DNA from: Vitreimonas flagellata | GTDB taxonomy: Bacteria; Pseudomonadota; Alphaproteobacteria; Caulobacterales; Aquidulcibacteraceae | Assembly: GCF_004634425.1 (NCBI RefSeq) | Contig: NZ_SBJL01000001.1 | Location: 1,399,001 to 1,463,000 of the forward strand | Direction of reading: 5' to 3' | Length of the DNA: 64,000 nt | Shown: in pieces, positions 842 through 12,087 of the stretch | Position numbering within the stretch: position 1 is the stretch's first letter | How the letters are laid out: every line of letters starts with the position of its first letter | Program-made: the position numbers and the translations under genes | The notes under the pieces: generated by a model | Database searches by the model: none | What the model saw: the letters and a program-made list of their open reading frames with translations, nothing else | Told to the model about the DNA's origin: nothing

Positions 842-1195
842 TCAATCGCCTCGTTTCAAGACGCGCACAGAAATCCGCTCTCGCTCGCCCAGACGCCGTT
901 CGCACAGCAGCCGCGCGATCTGGCTGTCATCGACAAACACATGCCCCTTCAGCGCGTCGAGCAACGCCTTGGCCAAATTGTCGAGATCGAGCGTCGGCGT
1001 TTCGCCGACATATTCCATGATCAGCTCGACCTCGAACTCGCCATAACGCGGCCGCAGCTGAAACTCCTTGCGGAAGAATTCATAAACCAGCGGTTTGTAA
1101 TAGCGCGCCTGCGTGGTGATGCCGTCGATCGTCAGCTCAACGCCGCCCGCAATCGTGCGCGCCCGCACTTTGCCGCGGCCGGCCCACTCGCTCAT
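842..1195 (-). CDS. RusA-family Holliday-junction resolvase-like protein
   Basis: 117 residues, matching the RusA endodeoxyribonuclease family in length. The hallmark is the acidic active-site stretch DLDNLAKALLDAL followed by FVDDSQIARL, which supplies the aspartates that bind metal and cut Holliday junctions in characterised members. The start codon overlaps the stop of the upstream 331-residue membrane protein gene (ATGA overlap), so the two are probably co-translated. RusA proteins are often prophage-borne, but no phage genes are nearby, so this looks like a resident chromosomal copy. Substrate and role here are inferred from the family. Confidence 0.8.
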   Translation of the reverse strand: MSEWAGRGKVRARTIAGGVELTIDGITTQARYYKPLVYEFFRKEFQLRPRYGEFEVELIMEYVGETPTLDLDNLAKALLDALKGHVFVDDSQIARLLCERRLGERERISVRVLKRGD

Positions 1196-2187
1196 GCGCT
1201 GGCGGCGTGCGTCGCGCGCATCGCCTCAAGCATCGCCGCACGAAACAGCGACCGCCGCTGCATCTCGCCATCCGGCGCATACGGGAAAACCCGCTGCGAC
1301 AGCCCCGCCGCCCGCAGCGCCGCCTCCGCCTCCTCCAGCCTGCCCCAAAGCGCCACAAACACGCAGCGCAACGCAGCACCTTCGGCTTGGATCGCCGCAA
1401 GCGCCCACGAGCCGCCATCGGAAAGATCAACGACAATCGCGTCGCTCGAATCGAGCACGAGGTTCAGCACCAATGGCCGCCACTGATCCGTAGCGCTGAG
1501 CGCCAAGGTCTCGCGCCGCGTCCCCATATTGGTGAGATTGAGCCCAATCCGATTACCGATCTCCAGCGCCCGCGCGCGATAATCGGCGGCGCTCTTCACC
1601 ACCATGCCTTCAACGCGACCGGCCAAGCTCACTACGTGCCCATAGGGCCGCAACTCACTGGCGATCGCGCCACGCAACGGCGCACGCGCAAGCTCAAGCT
1701 CCGCGCGCACCACGCACACTCGCGCAGGTTTCAATCGGAGCACGAGCGCACCAATCCAAAGCACCAGCGCCGCGAAGCCAATTCCCAACAGAATTGCGTT
1801 CAACATCACCGGTCCGAGCCCGGCCACGACGGCGCCCGCGAACGCCACGACCGCCAGCATCCCCAGGCCAGCGCGCAGCTGTCGCGGCCAGCCAAAGAAC
1901 AGCGCGTCGCCCCGCTCCAAGTCCTTCGCGCTCAGAAAGCTCGGCACACGCAGCCGCCACGGCTCCGCCGACAGCCGCCGCGCCCGCAGCGCCTCGGCCG
2001 CCGCCGCTCGCGCTTCGTCGCTATGGTCCGGATTGAGCGCAGCCGCCCGCAACGCGCGGTCCGACAGCCGCTCCACCTCGTCAGGGTGCGGCGAACCGGC
2101 GCGCATGGCGCTGATGGTACGCATATCCTGCAGCTGCACGCGCCAATCGCCCCCGCTATCGGCTTGATCGCTCGATTTCATCCCCAT
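1192..2187 (-). CDS. Uncharacterised membrane protein with two central helices
   Basis: 331 residues, family not recognised. The N-terminal 80 residues are charged and alanine-rich. Two adjacent hydrophobic segments follow (about residues 105-150, around [17 protein letters not shown] and a second leucine-rich helix). The C-terminal half is a soluble alpha/beta-like region containing [16 protein letters not shown]. The start could be residue 1 or 3 (two close ATGs). It is followed by the rusA-like gene with a 4-base overlap and is divergent from fumC, with a 47-base shared promoter region. The function is unknown. Confidence 0.75.
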
Positions 2188-2234
2188 ATCCCCTACCGGG
2201 ACAACGCGTCACTTTTACCCAAGGCGTATTTCCC

Positions 2235-4429: not shown

Positions 4430-5461
4430 CTATTGCTGCAACGGCCGACCATAGAGAACCAGCGCGTAATAGCATGGCTGCACCGTGCAGGCGTGCATCT
4501 GGGCGCGCACGGTGAACGGCCCCGTCCATTGCGGCGCAACAGCGACCACGGGCGTCGCGTCCGTCATGTTGTCCTGCGACACGACGTTATTGTTCTGGTC
4601 GTAGAGAAAGAGGTCAAGGTCGCTGCAATCGTTGTCGCAAACGCCGATGATGCGATAATCACCACCAGCTTCGAGCGTCGCCGGCGTATCCGCGAAGGCG
4701 CCTTGTTGTAGCGAGCCGCTCACTGGCTCTGACATGCGCTGGAAGCCTTGCGAAGCGAAGCTCTGCTCGACCTGCGCCAAGCGATCCAACATCTGCTGCT
4801 GATAGTTTACGGCGGGCTGCGCCGGGACGACGGGCTGAACCGTTGTCGGATTTTCGGCGACCACCTGTGTTTCATCCGGGATCATCGAGCCGATGATGCC
4901 GAGCACGACCACGGTCGCCACCACGGCGCCGACGATCCAAACCCAAACCGGCACGCCCTTCTTTTTCTCAGACGACGCCTGCGCCGCGGGCGGCGCGCTA
5001 AAGCTTTGTGACGCAACTGGCGGCGCCGCCGCAGCGCGCGGTGGCGGTTCCGGCGCACGCGGCGTCGGCTGGCTCGCGGCAAAGCGCTTCACCGCATCGG
5101 CAAAGCGGCGCCAATTCGGATCGTCCATAGCGCCATTCCAGCTGGCGAGGTTCGCGGATTGCACTTCGCCAAACCCGAACGGCGGGTTCGAACCATCGAT
5201 CATGACCGGGATCAGCACGCCCTTGTCGCGGCCCATCCGCGCCTCTTCGCGCACCCATTGCGAGGTCGTCGAATGTTGACTCCAGAGCACGATCAGCGCT
5301 TTGCACTGCGCCAGCTTCTGCTCGATGAAATCGGCCCATGTCGTGCCCGGCGGGATTTCGTTGTCCCAGAATACGTCCACGCCATCCTGCGTGAGCGCAT
5401 TAGCGACCTGCTCGGCCCGCTCGCGATCTTCCCGCGCATACGAAAGAAAAACGTCCGCCAT
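4430..5461 (-). CDS. TIR-domain single-pass membrane protein with four-Cys C-terminal domain
   Basis: 343 residues. Residues 1-130 are a TIR_2-type domain: SYAREDRERAE, WDNEIPPGTTWADFIEQKL, ALIVLWSQHS and WVREEARMG. E73, four residues after W69, aligns with the catalytic glutamate of NAD-cleaving TIR domains such as SARM1. A proline/alanine linker (131-165) leads to one membrane helix (about 171-194, VWVWIVGAVVATVVVLGIIG). The C-terminal domain (about 222-340) contains GVCDNDC and ACTVQPC and closely matches the secreted protein at 11638-12087. Predicted topology is TIR in the cytoplasm and C-terminal domain in the periplasm. The start has a good ribosome binding site (AGGAGGGGAC). A paralogous TIR gene lies 65 bases upstream. 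NADase activity and any signalling or defence role are inferred. Confidence 0.85.
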   Translation of the reverse strand: MADVFLSYAREDRERAEQVANALTQDGVDVFWDNEIPPGTTWADFIEQKLAQCKALIVLWSQHSTTSQWVREEARMGRDKGVLIPVMIDGSNPPFGFGEVQSANLASWNGAMDDPNWRRFADAVKRFAASQPTPRAPEPPPRAAAAPPVASQSFSAPPAAQASSEKKKGVPVWVWIVGAVVATVVVLGIIGSMIPDETQVVAENPTTVQPVVPAQPAVNYQQQMLDRLAQVEQSFASQGFQRMSEPVSGSLQQGAFADTPATLEAGGDYRIIGVCDNDCSDLDLFLYDQNNNVVSQDNMTDATPVVAVAPQWTGPFTVRAQMHACTVQPCYYALVLYGRPLQQ

Positions 5462-5526
5462 GTCCCCTCCTGCAGCGACCTAGTCCTAGCAGGCGAGAAC
5501 GCGGGTTCAAACGGACACTTGAGGGG

Positions 5527-6492
5527 TCATTGCCCTTTCGGGTTTGGCCCGTACTGGTTTGCACCCGGCTTCGACGGCAGCACCAAGATCACCAGCATGC
5601 CGATGCCGGCGACAAGAAGTATCAACCCGCCCAGAGGCGGCATCGCCACCGAAAGCCCGCCGCCGACCAGGAAAGCGACGAAGAAGCCCGCCACCAGCCA
5701 ACCGCTCAAGCCCACATCATGGAAGCGCCGCGCCGCGACGCTGATCCCTGGCGCGAGCACGGCGAGATTGAGGATGGTTGAGACGGCCTGCGTGTTTGGC
5801 TGCGATGTGTACGAATTGAAGCCGAACAACACGACATCGATAATGTAGGCGACGATCGAAACGACGAACACGCCGAGCGTCCACCACCAATATTCCGCGC
5901 GCCGCGCACGGCCATTGCCGTTCACGTAGAGCCGCAGACACTTCTGGATGTAGCCGATCGGCGACAAATTCTCAGGCGCGCCACTCTCCGCCGAACTCGC
6001 GGCGGCGCGCGGATCGCTCCACGCAGGCGCGGCAGCCGGCGGCGGTGCTGACCAGGCAGCTTGCGGCTGCGGCGCGGCAGGCGGCGGCAGCGGCGCATCA
6101 GCGCCACGCGCCGTCGCATACACCGCGCGCGAGAAGCGCACCCAATCGGGATGATTTTGATCGCCGGTCCAAGCGCTCAGATCCGCGGCCTGCACTTCGC
6201 CGAAACCAAACGGCGCCGGCGTGCCGTCGAGCAGCACAGGAATGAGCTTGGCCTTTTCGCGCCCCATGCGCGCCTCTTCGCGCACCCATTGCGATTTTGT
6301 TGAATGCTGGCTCCACAGCACGATCACGGCGCGGCACTGCGTGAGTTTGCCTTCGATATAATCGGCCCAGGTTTGCCCCGGCGGAATCTCGGTGTCCCAG
6401 AAAACCTCCAGCCCCAGACCGTTCAGCCCGCGCGCGATGCGCTCGGCAAAGCCACGGTCTTCCCGAGCATAAGAGATGAAAATATCGGCCAT
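5527..6492 (-). CDS. TIR-DUF805 fusion membrane protein
   Basis: 321 residues from the ATG that begins MADIFISYARED; an in-frame ATG 8 codons upstream is less likely because the paralog begins at the same residue. Residues 1-130 are a TIR domain nearly superimposable on the downstream paralog, including IVLWSQHSTKSQWVREEARMG with the candidate catalytic E73. A proline/alanine-rich linker (about 135-185) follows. The C-terminal 130 residues are a DUF805 module: LRLYVNGNGRARRAEYWWW, then about four membrane helices, with ARRFHDVGLSGW and the closing GPNPKG. DUF805 is a widespread membrane domain of unknown function. It is probably co-transcribed with the downstream TIR gene. Confidence 0.85.
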   Translation of the reverse strand: MADIFISYAREDRGFAERIARGLNGLGLEVFWDTEIPPGQTWADYIEGKLTQCRAVIVLWSQHSTKSQWVREEARMGREKAKLIPVLLDGTPAPFGFGEVQAADLSAWTGDQNHPDWVRFSRAVYATARGADAPLPPPAAPQPQAAWSAPPPAAAPAWSDPRAAASSAESGAPENLSPIGYIQKCLRLYVNGNGRARRAEYWWWTLGVFVVSIVAYIIDVVLFGFNSYTSQPNTQAVSTILNLAVLAPGISVAARRFHDVGLSGWLVAGFFVAFLVGGGLSVAMPPLGGLILLVAGIGMLVILVLPSKPGANQYGPNPKGQ

Positions 6493-6551
6493 CGGGCGTC
6501 CCCATCTGCGAGTCATCCAAGCCTAGCCGGCTTTGATGACGGGGGACTACC

Positions 6552-6755
6552 TCATACCGTCTCGTCCAGTGCGAAACTCGGTGTTTCTGTGGGCAGCGGT
6601 AGGTCCGGCAGATCAAGCGACACCGGCTTCAACGACATTTCAAACACCGATGGGGCCACCCCAGGCGCAAACGCCATCACCGTGAGCGCCAAGACCAGCA
6701 CGCACGCGACAAACCCTGCCAAGACGCCGAAACGGGATTCACTATCGCCAGCCAC
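6552..6755 (-). CDS. Small single-pass membrane protein (hypothetical)
   Basis: 67 residues from a GTG start (VAGDSESRF) supported by a good ribosome binding site (AGGAAAGG, 11 bases upstream). A longer frame starting at 6860 would overlap the neighbouring lipoprotein gene and is unlikely. One hydrophobic helix (about residues 8-30, FGVLAGFVACVLVLALTVMAF) is followed by a short, probably periplasmic tail rich in Pro and Leu. The family is not recognised. It lies upstream of the TIR pair on the same strand, 59 bases from the TIR-DUF805 start, and might belong to that transcript. Confidence 0.55.
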   Translation of the reverse strand: MAGDSESRFGVLAGFVACVLVLALTVMAFAPGVAPSVFEMSLKPVSLDLPDLPLPTETPSFALDETV

Positions 6756-6817
6756 GAGTTTTGTTCCTTTCCTGCTGTGACAACAGCGGAGAGGAATCTC
6801 AGTTCCCACGACTGATG

Positions 6818-7264
6818 TTATAGGCCGCGGCAATAGACCAAGCTGGGCGCGGGCGCCCACGGACCGCCCGTCAACATCATGGCGCGCGCGGATTCCGCGA
6901 ATGAAATCTGGATATTGTGAGGCTCAGGCGGCGCCTGTGCATAGCAGGTCGCGGCGATCTCATAGCCGGCCTCTGTGATCCGCACGCCGCGAAACTCACA
7001 AGAGACCTCGCCCTGCGTGCTGATCCCATCCGCCTCGAAGCGCCATGCCGGGTTTGAGCAACCTTCAGCCGTCGTCGCCCACAGGCCAACATAGCGGGGC
7101 GTTTCCTCCGTCGGCGGCGGCAAAGTATGCGGCAGCGGCTGGGCCTCGCCTACATGCGCCGCCGCCGCCGGATCAGGTTCCGGCTCAGCCGGATCGGCGC
7201 ACGCAATCAATGCCACGGAAAGCGCGGCGGACGCCGCGCGTGCAAGCAAATTGGAAAGCCTCAT
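6818..7264 (-). CDS. Hypothetical lipoprotein
   Basis: 148 residues. The N-terminus (MRLSNLLARAASAALSVALIAC) is a lipoprotein signal peptide with lipobox LIAC, so the mature protein should begin at Cys and be anchored to a membrane facing the periplasm. A Pro/Ala/Glu-rich linker precedes a small domain beginning YVGLWA and containing GCSNPAWRF, with four later cysteines (SCEF, ATCYA, VYCRGL) that may form disulfides. The start three codons inside the longest frame is preferred because it begins the signal peptide. It is divergent from uvrD. The family is not recognised. Confidence 0.7.
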   Translation of the reverse strand: MRLSNLLARAASAALSVALIACADPAEPEPDPAAAAHVGEAQPLPHTLPPPTEETPRYVGLWATTAEGCSNPAWRFEADGISTQGEVSCEFRGVRITEAGYEIAATCYAQAPPEPHNIQISFAESARAMMLTGGPWAPAPSLVYCRGL

Positions 7265-7362
7265 TTCGTCCAAACCGCCTGCATAACGATCCGTTCCAGC
7301 GGCCCGCTCGCAACCTGCGATGCAGCGCCCTATGTTCTCGCTTCGTGCTAAACTGCGCGCGA

Positions 7363-10230: not shown

Positions 10231-11085
10231 ATGCTTCTTCTCACCGCCCTCGGCACGATGACCCAAGTTCGCGCCGCCGCCGACGAACTCGACCGCCACG
10301 ATCCCTCGCCCGCCGACGCGGTCAGCTGGTTCGAGGAAGGCCCCGGCAAGTTCCGCCTCGAAGTCTATGTGCCCACCGAGCAAGACGCCGACAGCGCCTG
10401 CGCCATCATCGGCGCAGCGGCGCCCGAGCTGCACATGATCCGCGACGAGGTGAAGGCCGCCGATTGGGTGGCGATGTCGCTCGAAGGTTTGCCGGCCGTG
10501 CGCGCGGGCCGTTTCATGGTCGCTGGCGCCCACGCGCTTGCGAACGAACAGAACGGCCTCTCGAAAATTTGGATCGAAGCCTCTGAAGCTTTCGGCACCG
10601 GCCATCACGGCACGACCTGGGGCTGTCTCATGGCGCTTGAAGGCATTTTACGCAAACGCCCTGTGAAGCGTGTGCTCGATGTCGGCGCAGGCTCGGGCGT
10701 GCTCGCACTCGCCGCGGCGAAACAAGGCGCAACCGCGCTCGCCATCGAGATCGACGAACGCGCCGCCGCGATCGCTGAAATCAACGCACAGCAAAACAAG
10801 CTCGCCAATCGCGTCCAAGTCATCGCCGGCGACGGCGCGCGCTATATCGCGCAACAAAAATTCGATCTGGTGTTCGCCAACATCCTGATGCGCCCGCTCA
10901 TTCGCTTAGCGCCAAAGCTTGTGCCGACCGTCGCGCCCGGCGGCACGCTCATCCTCTCCGGCCTGCTCCGCTCACAAGCGCCGCTGGTGCGCGAAGCGTA
11001 CGCAAATCGCGGCCTCATTCTGGAGCGCCAGATTCCCAAAGAAGCGTGGCTGACGTTGGTCTGGCGCAAACCTGCACGTGCTTGA
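10231..11085 (+). CDS. prmA: Ribosomal protein L11 methyltransferase
   Basis: 284 residues from the ATG giving MLLLTALGTMTQVRAAADEL. PrmA trimethylates ribosomal protein L11 using S-adenosylmethionine. The family-specific stretch EASEAFGTGHHGTTWGCL (about residue 113) precedes the Rossmann-type SAM motif VLDVGAGSGVLALAAAK, the acidic ribose-binding AIEID, and FDLVFANIL, which matches the D/N-x-x-x-N-I motif of PrmA. The N-terminal 110 residues correspond to the L11-recognition region. A start nine codons upstream is possible. Confidence 0.93.
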   Translation: MLLLTALGTMTQVRAAADELDRHDPSPADAVSWFEEGPGKFRLEVYVPTEQDADSACAIIGAAAPELHMIRDEVKAADWVAMSLEGLPAVRAGRFMVAGAHALANEQNGLSKIWIEASEAFGTGHHGTTWGCLMALEGILRKRPVKRVLDVGAGSGVLALAAAKQGATALAIEIDERAAAIAEINAQQNKLANRVQVIAGDGARYIAQQKFDLVFANILMRPLIRLAPKLVPTVAPGGTLILSGLLRSQAPLVREAYANRGLILERQIPKEAWLTLVWRKPARA

Positions 11086-11131
11086 CGGTGTGATGCGACC
11101 GGCTAGGCTTCGACGCGGGAGGGTTGAAGCC

Positions 11132-11641
11132 ATGTTCAAACTGAAATCGTCGTTCGTCGCTTTCGCGTTTGCGATTGCCGCGCTCTGCAACGCACCGCAA
11201 GCGTTCGCACAAACCGCAACGCCGTTCGATCTGGCCCAGCTCTCTCCCGAAGTGCGCGCCTCCGTCATCACTGCGCGCGACTCCCAACGCCGTGCGCTGG
11301 TCGCGTCCGCACGCTCTGGCGGTGGCGGCGCCGGTCTCGTGCGCTTCGACGGTTCGGGCGGCGATCGCTATCAGGGCGAATGTGCGCCATGTGACGCCGA
11401 CCCCCAACGCCACGGCTATGGCGTGATGACCTGGGACGACGGTGAACTTTACGCTGGCGCGCACATGCGCGGCGGCACGGGCGGCATGAAGCACGGCTAC
11501 GGCGTTTATATTTTTGCGAACGGCAACGTGTACGAGGGCCAGTTCAGCGCTGACCAATTCAACGGTCACGCCGCTGTGTGGGATTCGAACGGCACGCTTC
11601 TCTACCAGGGCCGCTATTTGAACAATCAGCCCGCCAATTAG
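11132..11641 (+). CDS. Secreted MORN-repeat-like protein
   Basis: 169 residues from the ATG with ribosome binding site GGGAGGG; the longer frame overlaps prmA. Signal peptide at residues 1-27 (MFKLKSSFVAFAFAIAALC then QAFAQ). The mature part holds two to three MORN-like repeats with the expected Y-x-G-x-x and HGYG-x-(M/Y) pattern: DRYQGECAP...HGYGVMTW, GELYAGAHM...HGYGVYIF, and NVYEGQF. Two cysteines (CAPC) lie in the first repeat. MORN repeats commonly bind membranes or act as scaffolds; the role here is unknown. It converges with the secreted gene at 11638, overlapping by 4 bases. Confidence 0.75.
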   Translation: MFKLKSSFVAFAFAIAALCNAPQAFAQTATPFDLAQLSPEVRASVITARDSQRRALVASARSGGGGAGLVRFDGSGGDRYQGECAPCDADPQRHGYGVMTWDDGELYAGAHMRGGTGGMKHGYGVYIFANGNVYEGQFSADQFNGHAAVWDSNGTLLYQGRYLNNQPAN

Positions 11642-12087
11642 CGCGCGTACACATTCACCGCATACCAGCACGGCTGCGCGCCGCACGCGAACATCGAAAG
11701 TTCGATATCGTATTGCCCCGTCACGCGCGGACGCACTTGCACGACAGGCACTCGATCATCGAGCAAATCTTGCGCGATCACGACATTGTTCTGATCCAAC
11801 ACACGCAGATCAATGTCACGGCAGCGCGAGTCACAGACGCCAACGATGCGATAATCCTGCCCCGCCCGAAGCGTGACGGTGTAACGGCGTGAAGAGCGTT
11901 GGCTGAGCCCTCCAGCGAAAGGCCCCGCGGCGCGCGAATAGCCCTCATTGCTCAGGATCGTTTCGGCCCGCGCCAGCTGTTGGGCCAACTCGCGCGCGAA
12001 CGGGTCCGGCACCTGCGCGCTGGCCGGAGAGGCCAGCAGCACAAGCGCAGCCACAGCGCCCAGAGCCTTTTTTACCGAAAAGCGCAT
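11638..12087 (-). CDS. Secreted four-Cys domain protein, paralog of the TIR C-terminal domain
   Basis: 149 residues. Signal peptide at 1-25 (MRFSVKKALGAVAALVLLA then SPASAQ), so the protein is periplasmic. The rest is one domain: a helical start (FARELAQQLARAETIL) followed by a beta-rich region with DYRIVGVCDSRC, VLDQNNVVIAQDL, PVVQVRP and FACGAQPCWYAV. The same pattern, including four cysteines (C-x3-C and C-x4-C) and the DQNN turn, forms the C-terminus of the TIR protein at 4430-5461. The fold resembles pre-peptidase C-terminal (PPC)-type beta-sandwich domains in pattern, but that is a guess. Function unknown. Confidence 0.78.
   Translation of the reverse strand: MRFSVKKALGAVAALVLLASPASAQVPDPFARELAQQLARAETILSNEGYSRAAGPFAGGLSQRSSRRYTVTLRAGQDYRIVGVCDSRCRDIDLRVLDQNNVVIAQDLLDDRVPVVQVRPRVTGQYDIELSMFACGAQPCWYAVNVYAR

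Follow-up and report, generated by a model that had tools for sequence, protein, structure and literature searches.

The gene pair and its predicted architecture

Two adjacent genes that each encode a TIR domain lie on one strand of the window, by which we mean the whole 64,000-nucleotide stretch of the Vitreimonas flagellata genome analysed here (contig NZ_SBJL01000001.1, positions 1,399,001 to 1,463,000); their features are collected in Table 1. The upstream gene encodes P0002 (321 aa) and the second encodes P0001 (343 aa), whose start lies 65 nt past the P0002 stop. DUF805 membership of P0002 is clear from Pfam, and the four helices of that domain were placed at residues 198-223, 236-259, 265-283 and 285-304 in an AlphaFold2 model. 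The C-terminal part of P0001 matched no Pfam family above cut-off. Its helix at residues 173-190, with KKK on the TIR side and PDET on the other, is read as one membrane helix. The helix, its flanking charges and the exported-looking paralogues described below together predict a receptor-like topology for P0001, with the TIR domain cytoplasmic, one membrane helix and the four-Cys domain outside. Both models were built as monomers (26 aligned sequences for P0001, mean pLDDT 79.8; 24 for P0002, mean pLDDT 79.1), with high confidence in the TIR and four-Cys domains and low confidence in the linkers.

Table 1. Features of the locus in window coordinates
Feature	Position	Strand	Basis
P0002, first gene of the pair: TIR_2, Pro/Ala-rich linker, DUF805 (four long helices)	5527-6492	-	Pfam, model, 27 aligned rows
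P0001, second gene: TIR_2, Pro/Ala-rich linker, one predicted membrane helix, four-Cys domain	4430-5461	-	Pfam, model, 28 aligned rows
P0002 E73 codon	6274..6276	-	invariant in 27/27 rows
P0001 E73 codon	5243..5245	-	invariant in 28/28 rows
P0002 DUF805, residues 189-316	5545..5928	-	Pfam, 88.1 bits (curated cut-off 25.7)
P0001 predicted membrane helix, residues 173-190	4892..4945	-	model helix; KKK before, acidic stretch after
P0001 four-Cys domain, residues 220-343	4433..4804	-	invariant Cys, all-beta model after one helix, fold matches
GCTAG...GACTC element ahead of P0002: candidate -10 word and CcrM-type GANTC site	6510..6527	-	row conservation
P0003, a paralogue of the P0001 tail: four-Cys domain as a free protein	11638-12087	-	42% identity over 120 residues, E 3e-30
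Free MORN protein	11078-11641	+	Pfam, 46.6 bits
Small membrane-protein-like ORF	6552-6860	-	
P0006, lipoprotein-like gene	6818-7273	-	
P0005, predicted membrane protein	1192-2187	-	

TIR domains

TIR_2 was found by Pfam in both proteins (87.2 bits at residues 4-108 of P0001 and 88.0 bits in P0002, cut-off 28), and the two domains share 66% identity over 124 residues without a gap. The segment WVREEARMG is common to both. Its Glu73 aligns with the glutamate at the equivalent place of the solved TcpB and PdTIR TIR domains and, as expected of the W-x-x-x-E glutamate of NAD-cleaving TIRs, is invariant in every aligned row of either type (28/28 P0001-type, 27/27 P0002-type); both alignments include the window protein, and the P0001-type rows contain two from one MAG (G004). 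The BB-loop stretch W32-D33-I36-P37-P38-G39 is likewise invariant in both sets. Trp69 is nearly but incompletely conserved: G008 has replaced it in both proteins of the pair, and G018 in its P0001-type protein. Foldseek matches to the TIR folds include the NADases AbTir (7uxu, TMt 0.70), SARM1 and SPARTA, and also the non-enzymatic TIRs of MyD88, MAL and Toll-type proteins; the best target-normalised TM-score among them belongs to a Hydra Toll-related TIR (TMt 0.84).

The original prediction, drawn from the DNA letters, fared well on anatomy: adjacent genes with closely similar TIR domains, WVREEARMG in both with Glu73 at the catalytic-type position, and fusion of one TIR to DUF805 are all borne out, and fusion of the other to a membrane helix and an exported four-Cys domain agrees with the P0001 model, export being predicted.

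The four-Cys domain and its relatives

P0001 has cysteines at positions 53, 275, 279, 325 and 330, and the last four are invariant in all 28 P0001-type rows. The domain that holds them is modelled as a PPC/GOLD-like beta-sandwich. The best Foldseek matches of the P0001 model include secreted beta-sandwich domains, namely those of the subtilase Tk-SP (E 6.8e-7) and of KP-43 (E 1.8e-5), p24 GOLD (TMt 0.77 and 0.80) and the ColH collagen-binding domain (TMt 0.66 and 0.67); these were assigned to the four-Cys domain by fold and aligned length, from which the query range was inferred. The PPC family itself (PF04151) gave no match on P0001 and, on P0003, only 14.2 bits, below the membership cut-off of 25.9.

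P0003, a free version of the domain 6 kb from the pair, has by eye a signal-peptide-like start; many relatives have it between prmA and pepP. The genome carries five copies of the domain, counting that of P0001; of those besides P0001 and P0003, two look lipoprotein-like and one looks exported (by eye). Since the other copies look exported, the four-Cys domain of P0001 probably also lies outside the cytoplasm. Elsewhere, the domain occurs within a lipoprotein-like 386-aa protein of G007 (L078), and relatives come from a Sphingomonas and from two MAGs, one of Zixiibacteriota and one of Caulobacteraceae.

Tail to tail with P0003 stands a free MORN protein that has a signal-like start. Relatives also have both tail types, MORN and four-Cys, in fusion with a TIR domain and a membrane helix at their uvrD/RHH site.

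Conservation of the pair

An intact adjacent pair is present in 24 of 30 genomes of the genus, this one included. The original prediction had been staked on the pair being conserved together in relatives, and this count answers it in the affirmative. Two further genomes (G016, G018) have one gene cut by a contig end. Four of the 30 are without one or both genes, and the pair is therefore not essential: G012 has the P0002 type only, with no room for a P0001-type gene before fumC; G014 has a single P0001-type gene whose TIR groups with a P0002-type TIR (99/96 in a TIR tree of few columns and unsettled bootstrap); G015 shows no TIR in the stretch from uvrD through a P0006 remnant to RHH (L152); and G028, 57% complete, has no TIR adjoining RHH (L164). 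A second copy was seen on another contig of G004 (L077), a MAG with 5% contamination.

The single gene of G014 (L071 8524-9561; L122 7902-8939) carries a P0002-type TIR on a P0001-type tail. It looks as if the stretch between both TIRs had been deleted, and an assembly join is possible in this draft MAG. On its uvrD side are ORFs resembling, by eye, an ArsR regulator, an SRPBCC protein, a GST and a DUF899-like protein, and ORFs similar to this set adjoin RHH in G028 (L164).

The place of the pair is stable. The gap from P0002-type stop to P0001-type start measures 27-86 nt in 23 genus genomes and in G036, a genome of a sister genus. Among the 23 genus relatives with an intact pair, fumC lies on the P0001 side in 22 (the contig of G013 ends there), and uvrD on the opposite side in 21 (the contig of G003 ends, and in G005 it lies outside the stretch fetched). 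An extra TIR gene stands between P0001 and fumC in G021 and G025. Orthologous pairs, down to about 50% identity, share this one place across the genus, which is more than chance would give.

P0001 matches at E <= 1e-10 were found in 43 of 61 genomes (this one with 29 others from its genus, 7 from the family and 24 from the order). Of 34 named related loci, several of which are genomes already counted in the genus set, 25 have the P0001-type gene in full length, and in 22 of those 25 a full P0002-type gene adjoins it; in the remaining three that gene is cut by a contig end (L104, L119) or missing (L122). In an order-level sample of 200 genomes, the matches listed, in which full-length ones rank first, include full-length P0002 in at least 16 of 17 genus genomes and in G069 of a sister genus; the seventeenth, G007, has its match in two pieces.

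The DUF805 tails of P0002 orthologues seem to have been exchanged. Six genomes (G003, G004, G007, G024, G027 and G029) form one group by TIR (95/99) and three by DUF805 (96/90, 83/90 and 94/88), the DUF805 tree being read without two own rows (C3:82315 and C2:162453) that had been translated on the wrong strand.

The same site is used in sister genera, on the side facing uvrD in those stretches that reached this gene (in g20 it lies outside the stretch fetched). The pair stands beside RHH/DUF4169 in G036 (g8) and G069 (g21); a single TIR-membrane-helix-four-Cys protein stands there in G062 and G165 (g21); and G063 (g22), G068 and G072 (g20) have there one TIR protein that carries a hydrophobic helix and, by eye, a MORN-like tail. 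TIR-MORN proteins also occur near the locus in G010, G013, G021 and G036 and, judging by position, perhaps in G025. In L156-L163, most of whose stretches fell short of the RHH/DUF4169 site, no TIR was seen there.

Neighborhood and selection

The pair sits between fumC/DUF4169/RHH and uvrD, near prmA, ligA, bamD and ftsZ. Twenty neighbor ORFs, taken from about 0.3 kb to 32 kb in window coordinates, were compared with Pfam: 15 match housekeeping families (SspB, RusA, fumarase, DUF4169, RHH_4, UvrD, PrmA, M24 and M20 peptidases, NAD-dependent DNA ligase, BamD/YfiO, FtsZ, FtsA, FtsQ and Ddl), 5 match none, and no defense gene was recognized among the 20. Over five genome pairs, dN/dS was 0.01-0.20 for the TIR domains, 0.02-0.13 for the four-Cys domain and 0.05-0.35 for DUF805, rising to 0.61 in the linkers. 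The pair looks vertically inherited and under purifying selection, and both the synteny and the low dN/dS run counter to recent horizontal transfer. A link to a defense island, which the original prediction had named as a point to check, gains no support: the scanned neighbors are largely housekeeping genes, inheritance looks vertical and selection purifying.

Several smaller genes accompany the pair. Upstream, on its strand, lie the small membrane-protein-like ORF, which had matches at E < 0.01 at the equivalent place in 10 of 31 loci searched, and the lipoprotein-like gene P0006. P0005, a fast-changing predicted membrane protein with no Pfam family above cut-off, adjoins fumC in many relatives.

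An upstream GANTC site

Ahead of the P0002-type gene, GANTC occurs at most 45 nt from the start in 24 of 27 curated upstream rows, and at 17-28 nt in 23 of them; the rows are related, and the counts are not to be read as probabilities. One row is the G014 hybrid, and G003 offers 43 nt of upstream sequence. The central base is free (C8 A6 G6 T4 over the 24 rows). Of eight palindromic words compared as a control, GANTC scored 24/27, AGNCT 13/27 and the others 0-5; the AGNCT count arises at least partly from overlap with the AGCCT of the GCTAGCCT word. The joint GCTAG/GANTC pattern occurs 5 times in the genome, against 39 matches for the same pattern read backwards, a weak control of different make-up, and the two words were found together once in 282 kb where 1.3 were expected. 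Being rare genome-wide, with its words not enriched together, the joint element is not a word common throughout the genome.

The genome encodes GcrA (profile, 174.6 bits), and the combination of GANTC near a promoter with GcrA in the genome, as for a GcrA/CcrM-controlled promoter, is found here. According to part of PMC3667746, Caulobacter has several promoters that, like GcrA binding, depend on GANTC being methylated, and a portion of PMC4287350 describes GANTC near start sites as accompanying cell-cycle expression. The extended motif YGAKTCK, discussed in a section of PMC7987155, is not kept: the site here reads TGACTCG, and all four bases occur at the central position across rows. On this sequence evidence we propose that the pair may be under cell-cycle control.

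The comparison took in 13 genes. Upstream of fumC (window 2188-2234), GANTC lies within 60 nt in 18 of 24 rows, nearly always as GATTC (T in 16 of the 18), and is missing from the own genome; P0005, which shares the gap with fumC, has it in 7 of 13 rows. Upstream of the P0001-type gene, GCTA is found within 60 nt in 25 of 29 rows (one row, that of G012, being the other gene).

Possible function

Bacterial TIRs have mostly been studied as cytoplasmic or mobile defense effectors. The anatomy and conservation of this pair are well supported, and its occurrence at one housekeeping site suggests a permanent envelope-signaling module, not a passing phage-defense island. We tentatively propose, at somewhat less than an even chance, a core-genome inner-membrane TIR module in which envelope sensing would cluster the TIR domains and lead to NAD+ cleavage or a signal. 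The outer domain of P0001 may sense or bind an envelope component, for which the free four-Cys protein is a candidate, while DUF805 would confine the TIR of P0002 to the same patch of membrane; clustering driven by the signal would unite the TIR domains into composite sites around Glu73, and these could cleave NAD+, with depletion or an ADP-ribose-type signal as the result. Composite sites built upon self-association are described for TIR NADases in part of PMC12847820.

An enzyme and receptor of this kind is supported by the invariant Glu73, the NADase fold matches, the KKK-flanked helix and the four invariant cysteines, and its permanence by the single site in the genus, the use of that site in sister genera, the low dN/dS and the GANTC. 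Given the vertical-looking inheritance, purifying selection and conserved GANTC, an envelope response that is permanent and perhaps linked to the cell cycle is likelier than an acquired defense against one type of phage. Counted against the proposal are the loss of Trp69 in some orthologues, the MyD88-type fold matches and the four of 30 genomes lacking one or both genes. No downstream effector or ligand was identified; the sole effector search, for STALD across the genome, found none and carries little weight, its controls having been likewise silent.

A classical anti-phage role, in which membrane-anchored TIR NADases kept as core genes would stall or kill the infected cell, is rather unlikely, although it draws on the invariant Glu73, on partial matches of the TIR stretch to PADLOC and NCBIfam defense models and on the wealth of TIR genes in the lineage. 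In the own genome 24 genes account for 25 TIR_2 hits, the ranges per genome being 7-25 (30 genus genomes), 0-21 (19 others of the family) and 0-19 (32 others of the order), and the pair is accordingly one of a large repertoire and no lone curiosity. A simple hydropathy scan, with three calls set aside by eye, puts a membrane helix in about 11 of the 24 gene products, making membrane-tied TIRs a theme of this genome, and by eye we take the partner regions to be very diverse, with TPR-/Sel1-, SH3-, WD40-, kinase-, DnaB- and sulfatase-modifying-factor-like examples. The defense-model matches, however, cover the TIR stretch and not the full length of either protein in PADLOC, and reach 39.8 bits against a cut-off of 220 for NCBIfam ThcB4, again over the TIR stretch; the housekeeping neighbors, stable synteny and low dN/dS also speak against this role. 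Thoeris as such was set aside, there being no ThsA-like effector gene among the 20 scanned neighbor ORFs.

It is also possible, if doubtful, that the TIRs act as a non-enzymatic scaffold that only holds membrane proteins together, like an adaptor and without NAD chemistry. The fold matches to MyD88, MAL and Toll-type TIRs, with the highest TM-score going to the Hydra protein, and the incompletely kept Trp69 would fit a scaffold, but the invariance of Glu73 and of the BB-loop stretch in both row sets would not. That the two are independent membrane proteins, neighbors by an old tandem duplication and not cooperating, is improbable: single genes do exist (G012, G014, and the P0001 type alone in G062 and G165) and the P0001-type gene may have its own promoter, as the GCTA ahead of it hints, but both genes are intact and adjacent in 24 of the 30 genus genomes and, outside the genus, in G036 and G069, and the gaps are short in 24 relatives.

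In its boldest form, which we consider unlikely, the proposal of an envelope-signaling module would make the pair a counterpart of Toll-type receptors in working, not in descent. The outer four-Cys domain would report on the envelope, or bind the free four-Cys protein; the membrane helix and the DUF805 partner would gather two TIRs into an NAD-cleaving assembly; and CcrM methylation would switch the genes, tying the response to chromosome replication. If so, this would be housekeeping, vertically inherited TIR NAD signaling in a TIR-rich lineage. More generally, the pair combines a predicted receptor-like topology with a stable chromosomal place near envelope and division genes, and if it does signal, permanent trans-envelope sensing by bacterial TIR chemistry, beyond phage defense, becomes testable.

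Comparison with known systems

A search of open-access PMC literature, judged by titles, found nothing on TIR-DUF805 or on such a TIR pair. By eye the two TIRs are like those of group 14 in the survey of PMC7075850, as far as its relevant portion describes them: they likewise start with D-V/I-F-I/L-S-Y and D12, differ in their tails (DUF805, or membrane helix and four-Cys domain, in the pair) and are there said to be little studied and without structural information. Thoeris ThsB/ThcB4 have the TIR stretch in common with the pair. AbTir, SARM1, SPARTA and SpbK share its TIR fold and the position of the glutamate; from these NADases the pair differs in its predicted membrane receptor-like topology and core-genome location, and its activity is putative.

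PPC (PF04151) and GOLD beta-sandwich domains resemble the four-Cys domain in fold, and its other copies in the genome look exported; the four conserved cysteines and the sub-cut-off PF04151 score set it apart. Toll-like and IL-1 receptors, like P0001 as predicted, join a cytoplasmic TIR to an outer domain through one membrane helix, but in P0001 the order is reversed, with the TIR first, no LRR or Ig domain was found in it, and no descent is claimed. Set beside these systems, the kind of chemistry proposed here is not new; what is new is the architecture, the stable core-genome place, where sister genera have varied outer tails, and the conserved GANTC.
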